Shown in pieces: positions 12,230 through 45,788 of a stretch of 64,000 nucleotides of DNA (within the stretch, counting starts at the first letter, position 1; every line of letters starts with the position of its first letter). Origin of the DNA: Candidatus Nitrosotenuis aquarius. Lineage in GTDB: Archaea; Thermoproteota; Nitrososphaeria; Nitrososphaerales; Nitrosopumilaceae. A model generated the notes under the pieces. It ran no database searches. It saw only the letters and a list, made by a program, of their open reading frames with translations, and had not been told where the DNA came from. The stretch is taken from the NCBI RefSeq assembly GCF_002787055.1, contig NZ_CP024808.1, forward strand, positions 1,204,328 through 1,268,327, read 5' to 3'. The translations under genes and the position numbers were made by a program.

Positions 12230-12868
12230 TTATTGGTATGGTTTTCGGTTTTGCTTTTCTTCCATCATTGCGTCAAACAGAGGAGATTTTGGTGTAAATC
12301 CATTGCAAATGAATGTATATGTTTCTGTAAGTGCAAAGCCAGTCTTTCCACCTGTTGTGTATGCTTCTTCATTATCTGTTCTTGTGTTTATCTTGTAGTT
12401 TTGGATAGAGCAATCCTTGTATTCCATTGATCTTGATGATTGTCCTGCTTGAACCAAGTCTACGGTGACATCAAAGAACTTGTATGGATATTCCTGTATC
12501 GCACCCCTTCCGCCCCACTCAAAAGTTTGGTCTACTGCTTTGTGCAAATATGGCGTATCACCAACAATTCGAATTAGCGTGAATTCCGGTGCTGTTTGTT
12601 TTGCAGATGCAAAGTTGGCTCCAGCTACTGAAGCGCTAAAGAGATTGCTAGTTGTATCATATAATTGGAAATCATATGTTACAGTTGCGTCCCTGAACTT
12701 GAATGTCGCTTGTGGATACACTCCCTCTGCAAAGACATAGACACTGTTTCCTGTTGGTGCACTTTGTGCAGTGATGTTTTCAGTCTGTGACAGGCCAACC
12801 ACCAAAGCAATTGATGCAATTGCAAGTGCTGCGATTACCGAAGTCTTTTTCATATTTTGTGTGTTCAT
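12230..12868 (-). CDS. Secreted protein of the phosphate island
   Basis: 212 residues. A basic start, a hydrophobic stretch (about 9-27) and an A-Q-S junction near 35 indicate a signal peptide. The exported part has no recognisable catalytic motif; two Cys near the C-terminal third (YKDCSIQNY, FICNGF) could form a disulfide. It shares the AACTATATAG element with pstS, and has a TATA-like TTTAGTAAA at 12,890-12,898, 26 bp before the ATG. Context suggests a phosphate-regulated surface protein; the function is unknown. Confidence 0.75.
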   Translation of the reverse strand: MNTQNMKKTSVIAALAIASIALVVGLSQTENITAQSAPTGNSVYVFAEGVYPQATFKFRDATVTYDFQLYDTTSNLFSASVAGANFASAKQTAPEFTLIRIVGDTPYLHKAVDQTFEWGGRGAIQEYPYKFFDVTVDLVQAGQSSRSMEYKDCSIQNYKINTRTDNEEAYTTGGKTGFALTETYTFICNGFTPKSPLFDAMMEEKQNRKPYQ

Positions 12869-12940: not shown

Positions 12941-12955
12941 CACTATATAGTTGAG
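12941..12955 (-). promoter_or_regulatory. Shared AACTATATAG element upstream of the secreted-protein gene
   Basis: Reverse strand CTCAACTATATAGTG, about 54 bp upstream of the TATA box of the 12,230 gene. Shares TCAACTATATAG with the pstS promoter (15,391-15,402) except for one flanking base. It lies 10 bp outside the left end of the mobile element. Confidence 0.5.
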
Positions 12956-12964
12956 CCAGGAATT

Positions 12965-13019
12965 GACGCATCGGTCTTGTATCATTATTAGCACGTCGTT
13001 ATTCCTGTAACAGCTCGGC
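12965..13019 (+). repeat. Left terminal inverted repeat of the element
   Basis: Begins GACGCATCGG and aligns ungapped with the reverse complement of 15,305-15,359 (GATGCGTCGG...), 40/55 identical, with shared blocks GTATC, GGCAC/AGCAC and CTGTAACA. A second GGCACGTCGT copy follows at 13,018-13,027, a possible subterminal repeat. Confidence 0.75.
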
Positions 13020-13043
13020 ACGTCGTAATTTTGGAGGAAAAAA

Positions 13044-13160
13044 ATGGAAAATATAGGCTTGGATATGTTCACCCAAATCCTATTCGGGATAGCCTTGTTT
13101 TATGCAGGCTATTACTATCGTGGCTATTCTATGGGTAAGCGTAGGAGGAACGAGCCCTGA
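13044..13160 (+). CDS. Micro membrane protein with basic tail (element cargo)
   Basis: 38 residues from ATG 13,044 with a strong GGAGGA at 13,033-13,038. One hydrophobic helix (about 9-24, followed by GYYYRGY) and a basic tail GKRRRN. Its 3' end overlaps the convergent 13,129 gene by 32 bp. Architecture resembles the small ORF next to the transposase relic at 45,789. Unknown function. Confidence 0.55.
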   Translation: MENIGLDMFTQILFGIALFYAGYYYRGYSMGKRRRNEP

Positions 13161-13359
13161 CTCCACTACCTAGAATCATCGCACCTACTGCGAATATTGT
13201 AGCCTTTATCCCAATATCCAGTAGTTTTTCACCGAATTCTATTGGTGATGGTATTATCGGTGCTTCTCCCATAGCGGGCATTCCTGCCCACATTGTAGTG
13301 AGTAGAAGAAATCCTCCAACACCAGTAAGTACCGAGCCAAGAATTATTCTAAAAACCAT
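13129..13359 (-). CDS. Small two-helix membrane protein (element cargo)
   Basis: 76 residues from ATG 13,359, preceded by a nearly ideal Shine-Dalgarno AGGAGGTGA (reverse complement of 13,370-13,378). Two membrane helices (about 4-26 and 50-68) separated by a short Pro/Glu-rich loop, and a basic C-terminus. Size and hairpin topology recall small membrane or capsid-type proteins of archaeal viruses, but there is no sequence evidence for that. Confidence 0.65.
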   Translation of the reverse strand: MVFRIILGSVLTGVGGFLLLTTMWAGMPAMGEAPIIPSPIEFGEKLLDIGIKATIFAVGAMILGSGVRARSSYAYP

Positions 13360-13437
13360 TAGTCTGTTTTCACCTCCTTTTGATGTGTTCTTGCCAGACC
13401 ATGTGGGGAGTGTAATACTTGGATTGCAAACATTCGA

Positions 13438-13743
13438 CTATATTTTACCTGTTGCTTTTGCAACTAATCCGAGAATCAACGCAATCGGTAATCCATATAT
13501 CAGAAGATCAAATGACGCTTTGTTTGGATTCTTTGTTATCTTCTGTAAATTTTTAGCATCTTCTAGATTGTCTTGTTGTTCTTGTGCTTGTTGTAGTTGT
13601 TCCCAAGTTTGTTGTCCATTAGGTGTATTTTGTATCAGCGATGAGTTTTCTAAAACACTCATACTTTGTGTATATACAACGGCACCAATCACTGACGCTA
13701 TTATTGCAACAAAAGCTGTGATTATTGCTTTTTCATCTACCAT
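13438..13743 (-). CDS. Membrane protein with Gln-rich central helix (element cargo)
   Basis: 101 residues if started at ATG 13,743 (MVDEKAIITAF); upstream in-frame ATGs at up to 13,833 would add 30 residues. Two membrane helices (about 6-24 and 79-97) flank a long hydrophilic helix rich in Gln, Glu and Asp (near QLQQAQEQQDNLEDAKN). It precedes the 13,129 gene on the same strand. Function unknown; topology suggests an oligomeric membrane or virion-like protein. Confidence 0.65.
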   Translation of the reverse strand: MVDEKAIITAFVAIIASVIGAVVYTQSMSVLENSSLIQNTPNGQQTWEQLQQAQEQQDNLEDAKNLQKITKNPNKASFDLLIYGLPIALILGLVAKATGKI

Positions 13744-13826
13744 ATTTTCCGTGATCACCACTATCACTGAGTTATTACTTAAAAAGCTGATCATAACTGC
13801 GTTATTGTCCAAAGGTAGGTGATATT

Positions 13827-14003
13827 TTGACAAAAAAAGAATTAATCATTGTACACCTTGCGAAGAAAGACGGAACATTACGTGTCGTAATTCCAAAACA
13901 AATCAGAGAAGAATTAAAGATTAAAGCTGGTGATACAATGCTTGTAAGTCATACTGGCCATAGAGTGATTTTCAAGAAAGTAGATCTGTCAGTTCTTTCT
14001 TAG
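13827..14003 (+). CDS. SpoVT/AbrB-family DNA-binding protein (element)
   Basis: 58 residues from TTG 13,827, behind a GGTAGGTGA ribosome-binding sequence at 13,814-13,822. The segment TLRVVIPKQIREELKIKAGD is the classical swapped-hairpin AbrB signature, followed by a short strand (HRVIFKK). Too short for the usual ORF threshold but convincing by motif. Probably a regulator of the element or an antitoxin-like protein; no toxin ORF is evident beside it. Its 3' end overlaps the convergent RHH gene by 15 bp. Confidence 0.75.
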   Translation: MTKKELIIVHLAKKDGTLRVVIPKQIREELKIKAGDTMLVSHTGHRVIFKKVDLSVLS

Positions 14004-14126
14004 ATGCTCACTCAAAATGACCCGAATAGTTTCTGGCACGGTTTCAAGAAGTCGTTCTTTTCTTTCTTTTTCTAGTGCTTTCTCCATTTCCTCAGGCACA
14101 GAAACTAAGATTCTTTTCATTACCAT
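13989..14126 (-). CDS. Ribbon-helix-helix repressor (element)
   Basis: 45 residues from ATG 14,126 (an internal ATG at 14,120 is an alternative). MKRILVSVPEEMEKALEKERK followed by VPETIRVILSEHLRK is a CopG-type RHH fold. It is divergent from the transposase gene across a 61-bp gap that contains a perfect 13-bp inverted repeat, so it likely represses the transposase and itself. Confidence 0.75.
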   Translation of the reverse strand: MVMKRILVSVPEEMEKALEKERKERLLETVPETIRVILSEHLRKN

Positions 14127-14127
14127 G

Positions 14128-14183
14128 TATCTTATGATATCTATCGATATATTTATTAATATTGGTCTGTATATCATAAGATA
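14128..14183. promoter_or_regulatory. Inverted-repeat operator between RHH and transposase genes
   Basis: TATCTTATGATAT (14,128-14,140) and its exact reverse complement ATATCATAAGATA (14,171-14,183) flank an AT-rich core with the internal palindromic ATCTATCGATATAT. Symmetric placement next to both start codons fits dual repression. Confidence 0.65.
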
Positions 14184-14187
14184 TCTA

Positions 14188-15339
14188 ATGAAATCAGATA
14201 ACAACACGCGACAAGAAAAAGGAAAGGCATTAGCTGAGAAGCCGAATCAGATAAGGCGTATTGATGATAATTGGTATCAAGTTAGATCACAGTCATTAAA
14301 ACATGAATCATGGTATGATGTAGTACAAACTGAAACAGGTTTTGTCTGCGACTGCCCTGATCATCAGTGGAGAAAGGTAAAATGTTATCATATCTACGCA
14401 GTTGAATTTAGCCAACTAATCAGAAACGAAGTTTTTAGAACAGTATGTATAGAAGAACTAACAACAAACAAGTGTATTTTCTGCTATTCAGGTAATATCA
14501 TAAAGCGCGGAATTAGAAAAAATAAAGTTGGAGATTTACAGAGATTCTATTGTAATGATTGTAAGAGATGGTTTGTTTTCAATATAGGATTTGAGAAAAT
14601 GAGAGCTAGCCCAGAAACAATAACGTCAGCTTTACAACTTTATTTCAGCGGAGAATCCCTAAGAAATGTCTGTAATTTTTTGAAGTTGCAAGGAAACAAG
14701 GTATCACATATGACCGTGTATCGTTGGATCAAAAAATATGTCAATCTAATGGAATCTTATTTGGAAAACATTCCTCCTACACTGGGCAACAAGTGGAGAG
14801 CTGATGAATTATACCTCAAAGTAAAGGGTAATACAAAATATCTCTATGCAATGCTTGATGATCAGACGAGATTCTGGATTGCAAAACAGGTAGCGGATAC
14901 AAAATACACAGAATGTGTTCAACCGTTGTTCCAGAATGCCTCCAAATTTGCAGGTGCAAAACCAAAGGTATTGGTTACTGATGGTGCACCAAATTTCGCA
15001 GAGGCTTACAGAATGGAATATTTGAAAGAAAAACTAGAATCTCCAAAACACGTCAGGCATATTCACTTTAACAATGATAGAAATAACAACAAAATGGAAC
15101 GCCTAAACGGTGAGATCCGAGATCGAGAGAAAGTCATGCGTGGTCTAAAGAACCCAGACACACCTATTCTAACAGGATATCAAATCTATCACAACTATGT
15201 ACGCCCTCACATGGCATTGGAAGGTAAAACACCAGCAGATATGGCGGGAATCAAGGTTGAGGGAAACAACAAATGGATTACATTAATTCAGAATGCGAAA
15301 AAGAGCCAGATTGTTACAGGTGGAACAACGTGCCAGTAA
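14188..15339 (+). CDS. SWIM-zinc DDE transposase (IS6-like core)
   Basis: 383 residues from ATG 14,188. Order: SWIM finger C54-x-C56-x9-C66-x-H68; zinc ribbon C96/C99...C122/C125; HTH region about 145-185 (SGESLRNVCNFL, HMTVYRWIKKY); then an RNase H-like catalytic core with D206 (RADELYLK), D265 (VTDGAPN) and E304 (NKMERLNGE). All catalytic residues and zinc ligands are present, so it may be active. The last residues lie inside the right terminal repeat. An extended frame to 14,017 exists but covers the RHH gene and operator. A diverged C-terminal fragment of the same family lies at 45,594. Confidence 0.92.
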   Translation: MKSDNNTRQEKGKALAEKPNQIRRIDDNWYQVRSQSLKHESWYDVVQTETGFVCDCPDHQWRKVKCYHIYAVEFSQLIRNEVFRTVCIEELTTNKCIFCYSGNIIKRGIRKNKVGDLQRFYCNDCKRWFVFNIGFEKMRASPETITSALQLYFSGESLRNVCNFLKLQGNKVSHMTVYRWIKKYVNLMESYLENIPPTLGNKWRADELYLKVKGNTKYLYAMLDDQTRFWIAKQVADTKYTECVQPLFQNASKFAGAKPKVLVTDGAPNFAEAYRMEYLKEKLESPKHVRHIHFNNDRNNNKMERLNGEIRDREKVMRGLKNPDTPILTGYQIYHNYVRPHMALEGKTPADMAGIKVEGNNKWITLIQNAKKSQIVTGGTTCQ

Positions 15340-15359
15340 AGATACAGAACCGACGCATC
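15305..15359 (-). repeat. Right terminal inverted repeat of the element
   Basis: Reverse complement begins GATGCGTCGGTTCTGTATC and matches the left repeat at 40 of 55 positions. Overlaps the final 35 bases of the transposase gene. Confidence 0.75.
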
Positions 15360-15390: not shown

Positions 15391-15402
15391 TCAACTATAT
15401 AG
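15391..15402 (+). promoter_or_regulatory. Putative phosphate-regulon element upstream of pstS
   Basis: TCAACTATATAG, about 43 bp upstream of the likely pstS TATA box (TTTGTAAATA, 15,435-15,444) that in turn lies 26 bp before the ATG. The same element occurs in sense orientation before the 12,230 gene and, shortened (GAACTATAG), before pstC. Confidence 0.5.
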
Positions 15403-15466: not shown

Positions 15467-16768
15467 ATGAAGAAAACACTATCTGTAATACTAGGTGTAA
15501 TTTTGATGGCAGGAGTTTTTGCTCCTTTAGTCGAGGCAGCAGAGCCAGCACCACCAAAGTCTGATAAACAATTTCAGATAACTGGTGCAGGAGCTACATT
15601 TCCATACCCCCTAATTGATACATGGAGAGTAGAATACAACAAGATCTATTCTAATGTGAATCTGAACTACCAGTCAATCGGTAGCGGTGGTGGAGTAAAG
15701 CAGCACACGGAAAAAACCGTGAACTTTGGTGCAACAGACGCACCTCTTACTATAAAAGAGCGAGAACTTGCACCGGGTACACTACACATACCAGAAGCAA
15801 TTGGTTCTGTTGTACTGGCATACTATATTCCAGAAGTTCCAAAAAGCGGACTAAAGCTAACTGGTGAAAACGTAGCAGACATTTATCTTGGAAAAATCAA
15901 AAAATGGAACGATCCAAAAATCCAAGAAAACAACCCAGATCTAAAATTGCCAGACAGGCCTATTCTTGTTACAAGACGATCTGATGGTTCTGGCACGACC
16001 TACGTCTTTACCGATTATCTATCCAAGGTTAGTGCGGATTGGGACAAACAAGTAGGAAAAGGCAAAAGCGTTGCATGGCCAACAGGAGTTGGGGCAGCTG
16101 GAAATGAAGGTGTTGCATGGGCTACTCGAAATACAAAATATGCTATTGGTTATGTAGAGTTGGCATATGCAAAGGCAAACGAAATGACTGTTGCATATTT
16201 GCAAAACGGCGACAAGACAGCCTTTGTAGAACCAACATTCGACACTGTCTTTGAAGGCGCCAAGGCGTACCCAGTAGAAAGAATACCAAAGCCAGAGGCA
16301 GATTGGAGTCAAGTGAGTATGGTTTTGGCACCTGGCCAAAACTCGTATCCAATTGTCAGCTTTACGTATCTGCTAGTCTATGAGGATCTCAATCAAGCAG
16401 TATCCAACAAGGATATGGCTCAAACTCTAGTCCACATGTTGTACTGGATGATTACCGACGGACAAAAATTCTCAAAGCCATTGGGATATGTACCGTTGCC
16501 AGAGAACATTCAGGGATTAGATAAACAAGGGCTATCTAGACTCAAATATGATGGAGAACAAATCTGGAGTCATACTTCAGATTCTGTCAAATCCGATACA
16601 ACAAAATCTGATGTAAAGTCAGATACAAAAACTGACGATAAAAAGAAAATCAAAAAGGACACCAAGAAAACTGAGAAGAAGTCAGACAAGAAAACTGAGA
16701 AGGAGGACACCAAGAAAGTCAAAAAACCAATCAAAAAAACAACAACTAAAACAATCACCAACAAATAA
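15467..16768 (+). CDS. pstS: Phosphate ABC transporter substrate-binding protein PstS
   Basis: 433 residues. Signal peptide about 1-25 (MKKTLSVILGVILMAG...VEA), then the PstS binding fold with phosphate-contacting GAGATFPYP, SIGSGGGVKQ, GATDAPL and RRSDGSGTT. Binds extracellular phosphate and delivers it to PstCAB. The last ~60 residues are a low-complexity tail of Lys, Thr, Ser and Asp (KTDDKKKIKKDTKK type), absent from typical PstS. The gene is separated from the pst operon by the regulator, the secreted protein and the mobile element. Confidence 0.95.
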   Translation: MKKTLSVILGVILMAGVFAPLVEAAEPAPPKSDKQFQITGAGATFPYPLIDTWRVEYNKIYSNVNLNYQSIGSGGGVKQHTEKTVNFGATDAPLTIKERELAPGTLHIPEAIGSVVLAYYIPEVPKSGLKLTGENVADIYLGKIKKWNDPKIQENNPDLKLPDRPILVTRRSDGSGTTYVFTDYLSKVSADWDKQVGKGKSVAWPTGVGAAGNEGVAWATRNTKYAIGYVELAYAKANEMTVAYLQNGDKTAFVEPTFDTVFEGAKAYPVERIPKPEADWSQVSMVLAPGQNSYPIVSFTYLLVYEDLNQAVSNKDMAQTLVHMLYWMITDGQKFSKPLGYVPLPENIQGLDKQGLSRLKYDGEQIWSHTSDSVKSDTTKSDVKSDTKTDDKKKIKKDTKKTEKKSDKKTEKEDTKKVKKPIKKTTTKTITNK

Positions 16769-45456: not shown

Positions 45457-45531
45457 GGGGCCGTAGTCCAGCTTGGTTAAGATGCTAGCCTGGGGTGCTA
45501 GAGATCGTGAGTTCAAATCTCACCGGCCCCA
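45457..45531 (+). tRNA. tRNA-Pro (GGG)
   Basis: Acceptor stem GGGGCCG/CGGCCCC with discriminator A, anticodon stem CTAGC/GCTAG around loop CTGGGGT (anticodon GGG), and T stem GTGAG/CTCAC around TTCAAAT. No intron. A decayed transposase fragment begins 63 bp downstream, suggesting the 3' side is an insertion hot spot. Confidence 0.92.
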
Positions 45532-45593
45532 CTTTAATTTTAATCACATTTGATCATTTATCGACCACAACAAAACTCAAGCTGGGGGGGGGG

Positions 45594-45788
45594 CTTAACG
45601 GAGAAATCCATGACCATGAAAAAGTTGTCAGAGGATTAAAGAAAGACGATTCGCCTTTGATTTCAGGCTATCAAATCTATCACAACATAAGACCTCACAT
45701 GAATTTACAGAACAAGACACCAGCCGAGGTTTGCGGAATAATTATCAAGGGACATGACAAGTGGAGGACTAATCGAGAACGCAAGCCT
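45594..45788 (+). pseudogene. Transposase C-terminal relic
   Basis: About 65 codons starting after a run of ten G (45,584-45,593). LNGEIHDHEKVVRGLKK aligns with LNGEIRDREKVMRGLKN of the 14,188 transposase; also SGYQIYHN..RPHMNLQNKTPAEVCGI versus TGYQIYHNYVRPHMALEGKTPADMAGI, with one residue missing. The upstream catalytic part and any terminal repeats are absent, so it is a diverged remnant of a related element. Confidence 0.85.

Follow-up and report, generated by a model that had tools for sequence, protein, structure and literature searches.

The archaeal members of the IS6 family of insertion sequences are about 0.7-0.85 kb long and carry one gene (Harmer and Hall 2019, PMC6807381). Among IS6 elements, a single case with a passenger has been described, ISDsp3 of a Dehalococcoides, which contains one hypothetical gene (Varani et al. 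2021, PMC7986276). Long IS6 transposases with an N-terminal zinc-binding extension ahead of the DDE core are known from clostridia. Each of those elements has one gene only, the transposase gene of 1.2-1.8 kb, and no SWIM motif is mentioned for them (PMC7986276). For the Thaumarchaeota, the main text of Krupovic et al. 2019 (PMC6563490) gives 1-2 genes as typical of IS-like transposons, and the multigene elements treated there are proviruses, casposons, and conjugative and cryptic integrated elements. Here, a stretch of 64,000 nucleotides from Candidatus Nitrosotenuis aquarius (contig NZ_CP024808.1; in the following, the window) was analysed, which contains a transposase gene together with five further small open reading frames (ORFs) at positions 12973-15351. 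This segment is very probably a complete, and probably autonomous, transposon of an IS6-related archaeal family which routinely carries passenger genes.

Element limits and empty sites

The element comprises 2379 bp (12973-15351) and lies between a secreted-protein gene (minus strand) and pstS (plus strand) in a closed thaumarchaeal genome of 1.70 Mb. The initial annotation, made from the window alone, had proposed inverted ends of about 55 bp. These ends are real, as they form the longest inverted repeat of the region (12965-13012 / 15312-15359, 77% over 48 nt); their outer 8 bp have to be subtracted. The sequence GACGCATC had been taken for part of the inverted repeat because it is nearly palindromic. 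This assignment was rejected, since GACGCATC forms a perfect direct repeat at both borders (12965-12972 and 15352-15359), which is the target-site duplication according to the comparison with the empty site of relatives. The true termini are GGTCTTGTATC... from 12973 and ...GATACAGAACC to 15351. When the 64-kb window was searched for the best combination of an 8/8 duplication and a GG-ended repeat pair around the transposase, exactly these ends were obtained with 22/30 matching positions; the runner-up reached 17/30.

In same-genus relatives, both flanking genes are adjacent and the intergenic region is uninterrupted. The distance between two CTATATAG boxes on either side of the insertion is 57 bp in the window after subtraction of the element and one duplication, and 55-56 bp in close relatives. 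Since this spacing matches the empty site of the relatives, it can be concluded that the element arrived as one unit, between the CTATATAG boxes. Small ORFs retained at this site without a transposase, a finding named in advance as contrary to a transposon, were seen in no same-genus relative. Empty sites were established for three elements: that of the window, G007a and G024. When the flanks of G007a are joined with one copy of the duplication, they align 600 to 600 bp with the sequence of three relatives; the same procedure gives 92% identity across the whole junction for G024. The stretch 12973-15351 of the window is a transposon with these limits, which we state with very high confidence.

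As in passenger-carrying insertion sequences (tIS), one transposase and one end pair would move the passengers as a unit: according to the empty sites and the bounded elements described below, genes without a role in transposition are enclosed by a single end pair with one transposase. Two flanking insertion-sequence copies, as in a composite transposon, are not present, the element having one transposase and one end pair. No ORF for Cas1 or a tyrosine recombinase, which would point to a casposon or an integrase-borne element, was found within the element.

The IS6-related family

In total, 63 elements including that of the window were bounded (1970-6770 bp, median 3270 bp). To be accepted, an element had to possess a perfect 8-bp duplication, a GG-ended repeat pair and the same SWIM/zinc-ribbon/DDE transposase. 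The elements derive from a near-relative set including the window (17), from a named genome collection (48 of 80 loci, five of which duplicate the first set) and from virus contigs (3). Two decoy searches with scrambled duplications yielded 1 and 0 matches versus 48 for the true duplications. A strict search for ends beside the transposase stop codon had found two elements only, because cargo is located downstream of the transposase too; the search was then widened. For the genome scan, a profile from all 25 aligned transposases was too diverse and a set of 10 was used. Transposase matches were obtained in 33 of 61 near relatives and, under a stricter setting, in 56 of the 398 genomes available for the phylum. 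Among the hosts are Nitrosopumilus, Nitrosarchaeum, Nitrosotalea, Nitrososphaera, Nitrosocosmicus, Bathyarchaeota, Methanoperedens, Methanoregula and Thermoplasmata. A transposase of the archaeal type of this family was also encountered in L142, a record titled Gammaproteobacteria bacterium, which is possibly a mis-binned contig or a case of transfer.

All 63 elements have 8/8 duplications, which is a selection criterion confirmed by the decoys and the empty sites. The duplications show a weak preference for YNNNNNNR, from which the window copy departs, and 49 of 57 assessable insertions are intergenic. Terminal repeats are identical over 30 bp in at least 15 elements, which suggests recent movement. 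Three bounded elements sit in virus contigs, thus viruses are a plausible vehicle. One of these elements (L091:6558-11604), in an archaeal virus contig, has an MCM helicase, a reverse transcriptase and an Mtd-like tail protein as neighbours; the latter two apparently constitute the diversity-generating retroelement of a tailed virus. We conclude with high confidence that these elements form an archaeal family with a common layout, i.e., tandem-motif ends, a central transposase, a tiny divergent DNA-binding gene and variable cargo on both sides. A cargo-carrying transposon family had been one of the initial suggestions, and the empty sites, the 8-bp duplications and the 62 further bounded elements of like build strongly support it.

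The left end of the window element (12973-13023, plus strand) contains an outer motif copy at 12977-12996 and an inner one at 13005-13023 (CTGTAACAGCTCGGCACGT). At the right end (15305-15351, minus strand), the outer copy is located at 15328-15347 and the inner one starts at 15319. The end sequence type is conserved in other copies of the family, as had been anticipated for a genuine transposon. The ends of the first 17 elements have the consensus GGTTCTG(T/G), and the first bases GG and the G at position 7 are present in 34/34 of them, GG being a selection criterion of the end search and G7 partly so. The outer 20-bp motif is followed by a second, equally oriented copy, for the most part at +26-29 or +36-39; the two spacings differ by one helical turn. 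An ungapped test for internal motif repeats was mostly not significant, and a gapped test revealed the two spacing classes. The pooled score of the tandem motif in the 34 ends was 335 compared to 193 ± 7 for shuffled sequences. The tandem motifs occupy about 45-60 bp per end.

The transposase gene (14188-15339, plus strand) encodes a complete protein of 383 amino acids (AA) with a match to Pfam DDE_Tnp_IS240 (PF13610, e-value 4e-16) and an AlphaFold confidence (pLDDT) of 84. Its 3' end is overlapped by the right end of the element, as the initial annotation had read it, and the DDE triad and both zinc motifs are intact. From the N-terminus, the domains are a SWIM zinc motif (ligands C54, C56, C66, H68), a zinc ribbon (C96, C99, C122, C125), helices with a weak helix-turn-helix match, and the DDE core (D206, D265, E304). 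All eight zinc ligands and the three catalytic residues are invariant in an alignment of 25 sequences, in which the relatives are 33-62% identical to the window protein. Matches in annotated plasmid and phage records are IS6 transposases with 23-31% identity over the core. Among solved structures, none was found by sequence, and by fold just generic integrase and transposase cores were found. The predicted RNase H-like core superposes on retroviral integrase cores, e.g., that of HTLV-2 (TM score 0.75 by target, 3.6 Å).

With IS6 and IS26 the family shares the DDE_Tnp_IS240-type catalytic domain with D, D and E, ends that begin with GG and have G at position 7, and 8-bp duplications. It differs in the length of the transposase (about 220-250 AA in IS6 compared to 383 AA in the window, with SWIM motif and zinc ribbon), in the tandem end motifs, the divergent regulator and the passengers on both sides. 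IS6 elements are normally short and single-gene with ends of 15-20 bp, and archaeal ones measure 0.7-0.85 kb (PMC6807381), whereas the elements of this family have 2.0-6.8 kb and several genes. The similarity of the core and the predominance of single-gene elements among the described members of IS6 (PMC7986276, PMC6807381) could suggest a plain IS6-type insertion sequence, with the small ORFs as chance neighbours and a coincidentally long left end. We regard this as extremely improbable: the 8-bp duplication and the empty site enclose the small ORFs, so that the alignment of the empty site refutes it, and 62 relatives show the same layout, the shortest of them having 1970 bp for a gene of ~1.15 kb. 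Compared to ISDsp3, the family is archaea-wide, passengers are the rule, and a slot is dedicated to a regulator. It resembles the clostridial long IS6 transposases in its zinc-binding extension. It shares its hosts with the elements of Krupovic et al. 2019 (PMC6563490), in whose larger elements ribbon-helix-helix (RHH) and restriction-modification genes are common; in the searched passages of the main text of that paper, the cargo-transposon class reported here is not described. No description of archaeal cargo transposons of this class was found in the open-access literature, subscription papers and supplementary tables being outside the search. What appears to be new, judging from the sequences, is the multi-gene, apparently regulated and modular body on an IS6-like core and ends. 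The family is IS6-related and was not filed as a canonical IS6 member.

In the window element, a 45-AA protein of the RHH (CopG) type (13989-14126, minus strand) occupies the regulator slot divergent from the transposase. Its Pfam match is weak (e-value 0.03), its match to relatives is clear: their RHH proteins are 84-89% identical and likewise divergent. The promoter region between both genes (14127-14187) contains a TATA-like box, ATATTTATTAATAT, between two related repeats, a putative RHH operator. This arrangement is conserved in eight elements with the RHH type of the window. In 51 of the 63 elements, a small DNA-binding gene starts 62-256 bp upstream of the transposase and divergent from it (25 RHH, 18 AbrB-like and 8 zinc-ribbon). 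Pfam backs these labels clearly for some MazE/AbrB occupants and weakly for RHH. With moderate confidence, we propose that the RHH protein acts as a repressor of its own gene and of the transposase. Whether transposition is controlled by a single small repressor slot, with occupants of unrelated DNA-binding folds, thereby becomes amenable to experiment. Many elements encode a protein of roughly 150-220 AA right behind the regulator in an operon-like arrangement (L114:7223-7729, L135:7268-7759, L161:7058-7714 and others).

According to the sequence, the element inserted between pstS and its neighbour gene as a single unit of 2379 bp, with formation of the 8-bp duplication. A possible mechanism can be outlined. 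The transposase would bind the tandem end motifs via its N-terminal zinc domains and pair the ends. By RNase H-like (DDE) chemistry, it would then connect the ends to the target DNA with a stagger of 8 bp. Movement might proceed replicatively through cointegrates, as it does for IS26, or by cut-and-paste. The RHH protein may bind the repeats around the shared TATA box, repressing its own gene and that of the transposase, while the passengers, i.e., three small membrane proteins and an AbrB protein, would ride along. Recombination via the conserved transposase and ends could allow elements to swap passengers.

Several points weigh against a functional transposon of an IS6-related family. The transposase misses the NCBIfam IS6 model by 2 bits (123 bits versus a cut-off of 125). 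Only one full copy was found in the genome of the window, its terminal repeats are imperfect (22/30), and it could be inactive now. Its inner motif copies at +28 agree with the family spacing and are not significant alone. About one in five eligible loci yielded no ends. The hidden Markov models for the regulators were seeded from the elements themselves; 51/63 is a classification and no proof of repression. Finally, mobility is deduced from sequence comparison.

Cargo and its probable exchange

Five ORFs besides the transposase had been noted inside the element, and all were recovered: three hydrophobic proteins, an AbrB/MazE-type protein and the RHH protein. A 38-AA ORF with one predicted membrane helix (13044-13160, plus strand) has GGAGG at 13033-13037 and no family match. 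A 76-AA ORF with two predicted membrane helices follows on the minus strand (13129-13359). Its one distant relative (L088; e-value 0.003, 33%) lies in another genus about 500 bp from a remnant of a transposase of the same family. The third membrane ORF (13438-13743, minus strand) encodes about 101 AA with a Gln-rich loop between two hydrophobic segments, and alternative starts could make it longer; no homologue was found in 120 other genomes or phage records. The Shine-Dalgarno-like sequences described upstream of the three membrane ORFs are present (GGAGG, GGAGGTGA and GGTGAT). The AbrB/MazE-type DNA-binding protein of 58 AA (13827-14003, plus strand) has a TTG start and matches Pfam MazE_antitoxin with an e-value of 9e-08, above the curated cut-off.

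In the family, the median cargo length is 1256 bp on the left and 756 bp on the right. The 125 cargo ORFs of ≥ 120 AA include, according to Pfam, 6 N6/N4 methylases, 3 D12 and 2 N6 methyltransferases, ThaI, Tsp45I, GmrSD, HNH and Mrr nucleases, 2 HEPN/AbiV and 4 proteasome-like proteins; PADLOC concurs on the methyltransferases. The proteasome-like cargo is an unexpected passenger which recurs (L062:7519-8445, L092:6669-7577 and L145:6707-7537 look proteasome-like by eye). Small proteins with two hydrophobic segments, called by hydrophobicity only, occur in 19 of the 63 elements, and their density in cargo is 3.2 times that of the flanking DNA (p = 0.0005). They are mostly mutually unrelated in sequence, and the membrane proteins of the window fall in this class.

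The same proteins underlie a further initial suggestion, a captured viral module, in which the membrane proteins would be capsid or envelope proteins of the spindle-virus type and the element a reduced provirus. Small two-helix hydrophobic proteins presumably recall fusellovirus-type capsid proteins, and the family members in virus contigs, one of them by the reverse transcriptase mentioned above, could be taken in its favour. We nevertheless consider this origin highly improbable: neither PHROGs nor phage records gave a match at the sequence level, no viral gene is present in the element, small two-helix proteins of mostly unrelated sequence are spread over the family, and the only relative of the 76-AA protein adjoins a transposase remnant of this family. 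The passengers might instead be an addiction or defence cassette, with AbrB/RHH antitoxins and with membrane proteins as toxins or abortive-infection effectors, which keeps the element or protects the host. Compatible with a passenger-carrying transposon, this proposal concerns the role of the cargo only. The frequent defence genes of other elements (methyltransferases, ThaI, Tsp45I, GmrSD, HEPN/AbiV), the match of the AbrB protein to MazE antitoxin models and the enrichment of small membrane proteins in cargo agree with it; in the window element no toxin family was matched, and RHH, AbrB or zinc-ribbon genes fill the regulator slot of the transposase whatever the cargo. We rate the cassette as rather unlikely; that the three membrane proteins serve defence or maintenance is the likeliest guess, albeit a tentative one.

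Pairs of elements often share transposase DNA and not cargo. G024 and L140 (= L215 element) occupy the same insertion point (CTTTCAGA / CTTTCAGG); their transposase DNA is 87% identical over exactly the gene and their ends are similar, whereas the type of regulator differs and the cargo is wholly different. L145 and L169 have similar ends (92% and 82%, about 60 bp) and 73% identity in the transposase; their cargo is not shared. With G021, L101, L108, L124 and L147, the window element has only the block from RHH gene to transposase in common. We read these patterns as a probable exchange of cassettes around a conserved core; for G024 and L140, repeated insertion at a favoured site would be the alternative. 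The elements could act as exchange platforms, in which transposase and ends persist, sometimes at one site, and regulator and passenger cassettes are swapped on both sides. That this is a main route by which small genes for defence and membrane proteins are traded among archaea, in part with viruses as carriers, is a conceivable extension which we put forward with some reserve. For L215/L140 and L061, a common insertion point was noted in two genomes belonging to the same genus; the elements there are 87% identical in their transposase DNA and differ wholly in cargo and regulator.

A widespread archaeal clade is thereby delineated in which passengers are normal and whose precise ends can be found automatically. 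It accounts for a class of unexplained small-gene islands. In ammonia oxidisers, Bathyarchaeota and methane oxidisers, it also provides a vehicle by which small restriction-modification systems and numerous orphan membrane proteins can spread. The compact transposases and their ends might serve as archaeal genetic tools.

Flanking genes and transposase remnants

The insertion had been described as splitting the divergent promoters of two apparently phosphate-linked genes. The shared intergenic region of pstS is indeed split, as seen from the empty site of relatives; the phosphate link of the second gene is unconfirmed, there being no Pfam match. This second gene (12230-12868, minus strand) encodes a conserved secreted protein, 48-67% identical to its counterparts in same-genus relatives, in which it keeps its position between a phoU-like gene and pstS. 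On the other side, the phosphate-binding protein PstS (15467-16768, plus strand) matches PBP_like_2 with an e-value of 3e-36 and is 65-85% identical in relatives. The palindromic CTATATAG boxes which bracket the insertion (12943-12950 and 15395-15402) do not occur elsewhere in the window. Same-genus relatives retain the pair at a spacing of 55-56 bp or wider, so that it may act as a pair of operators or promoters for pstS and the adjacent gene.

A remnant of the same transposase family was found at 45498-45773 of the window, beside tRNA-Pro (45457-45532). Further remnants are located at genome positions of about 649400-649830, 1664205 and 35688.

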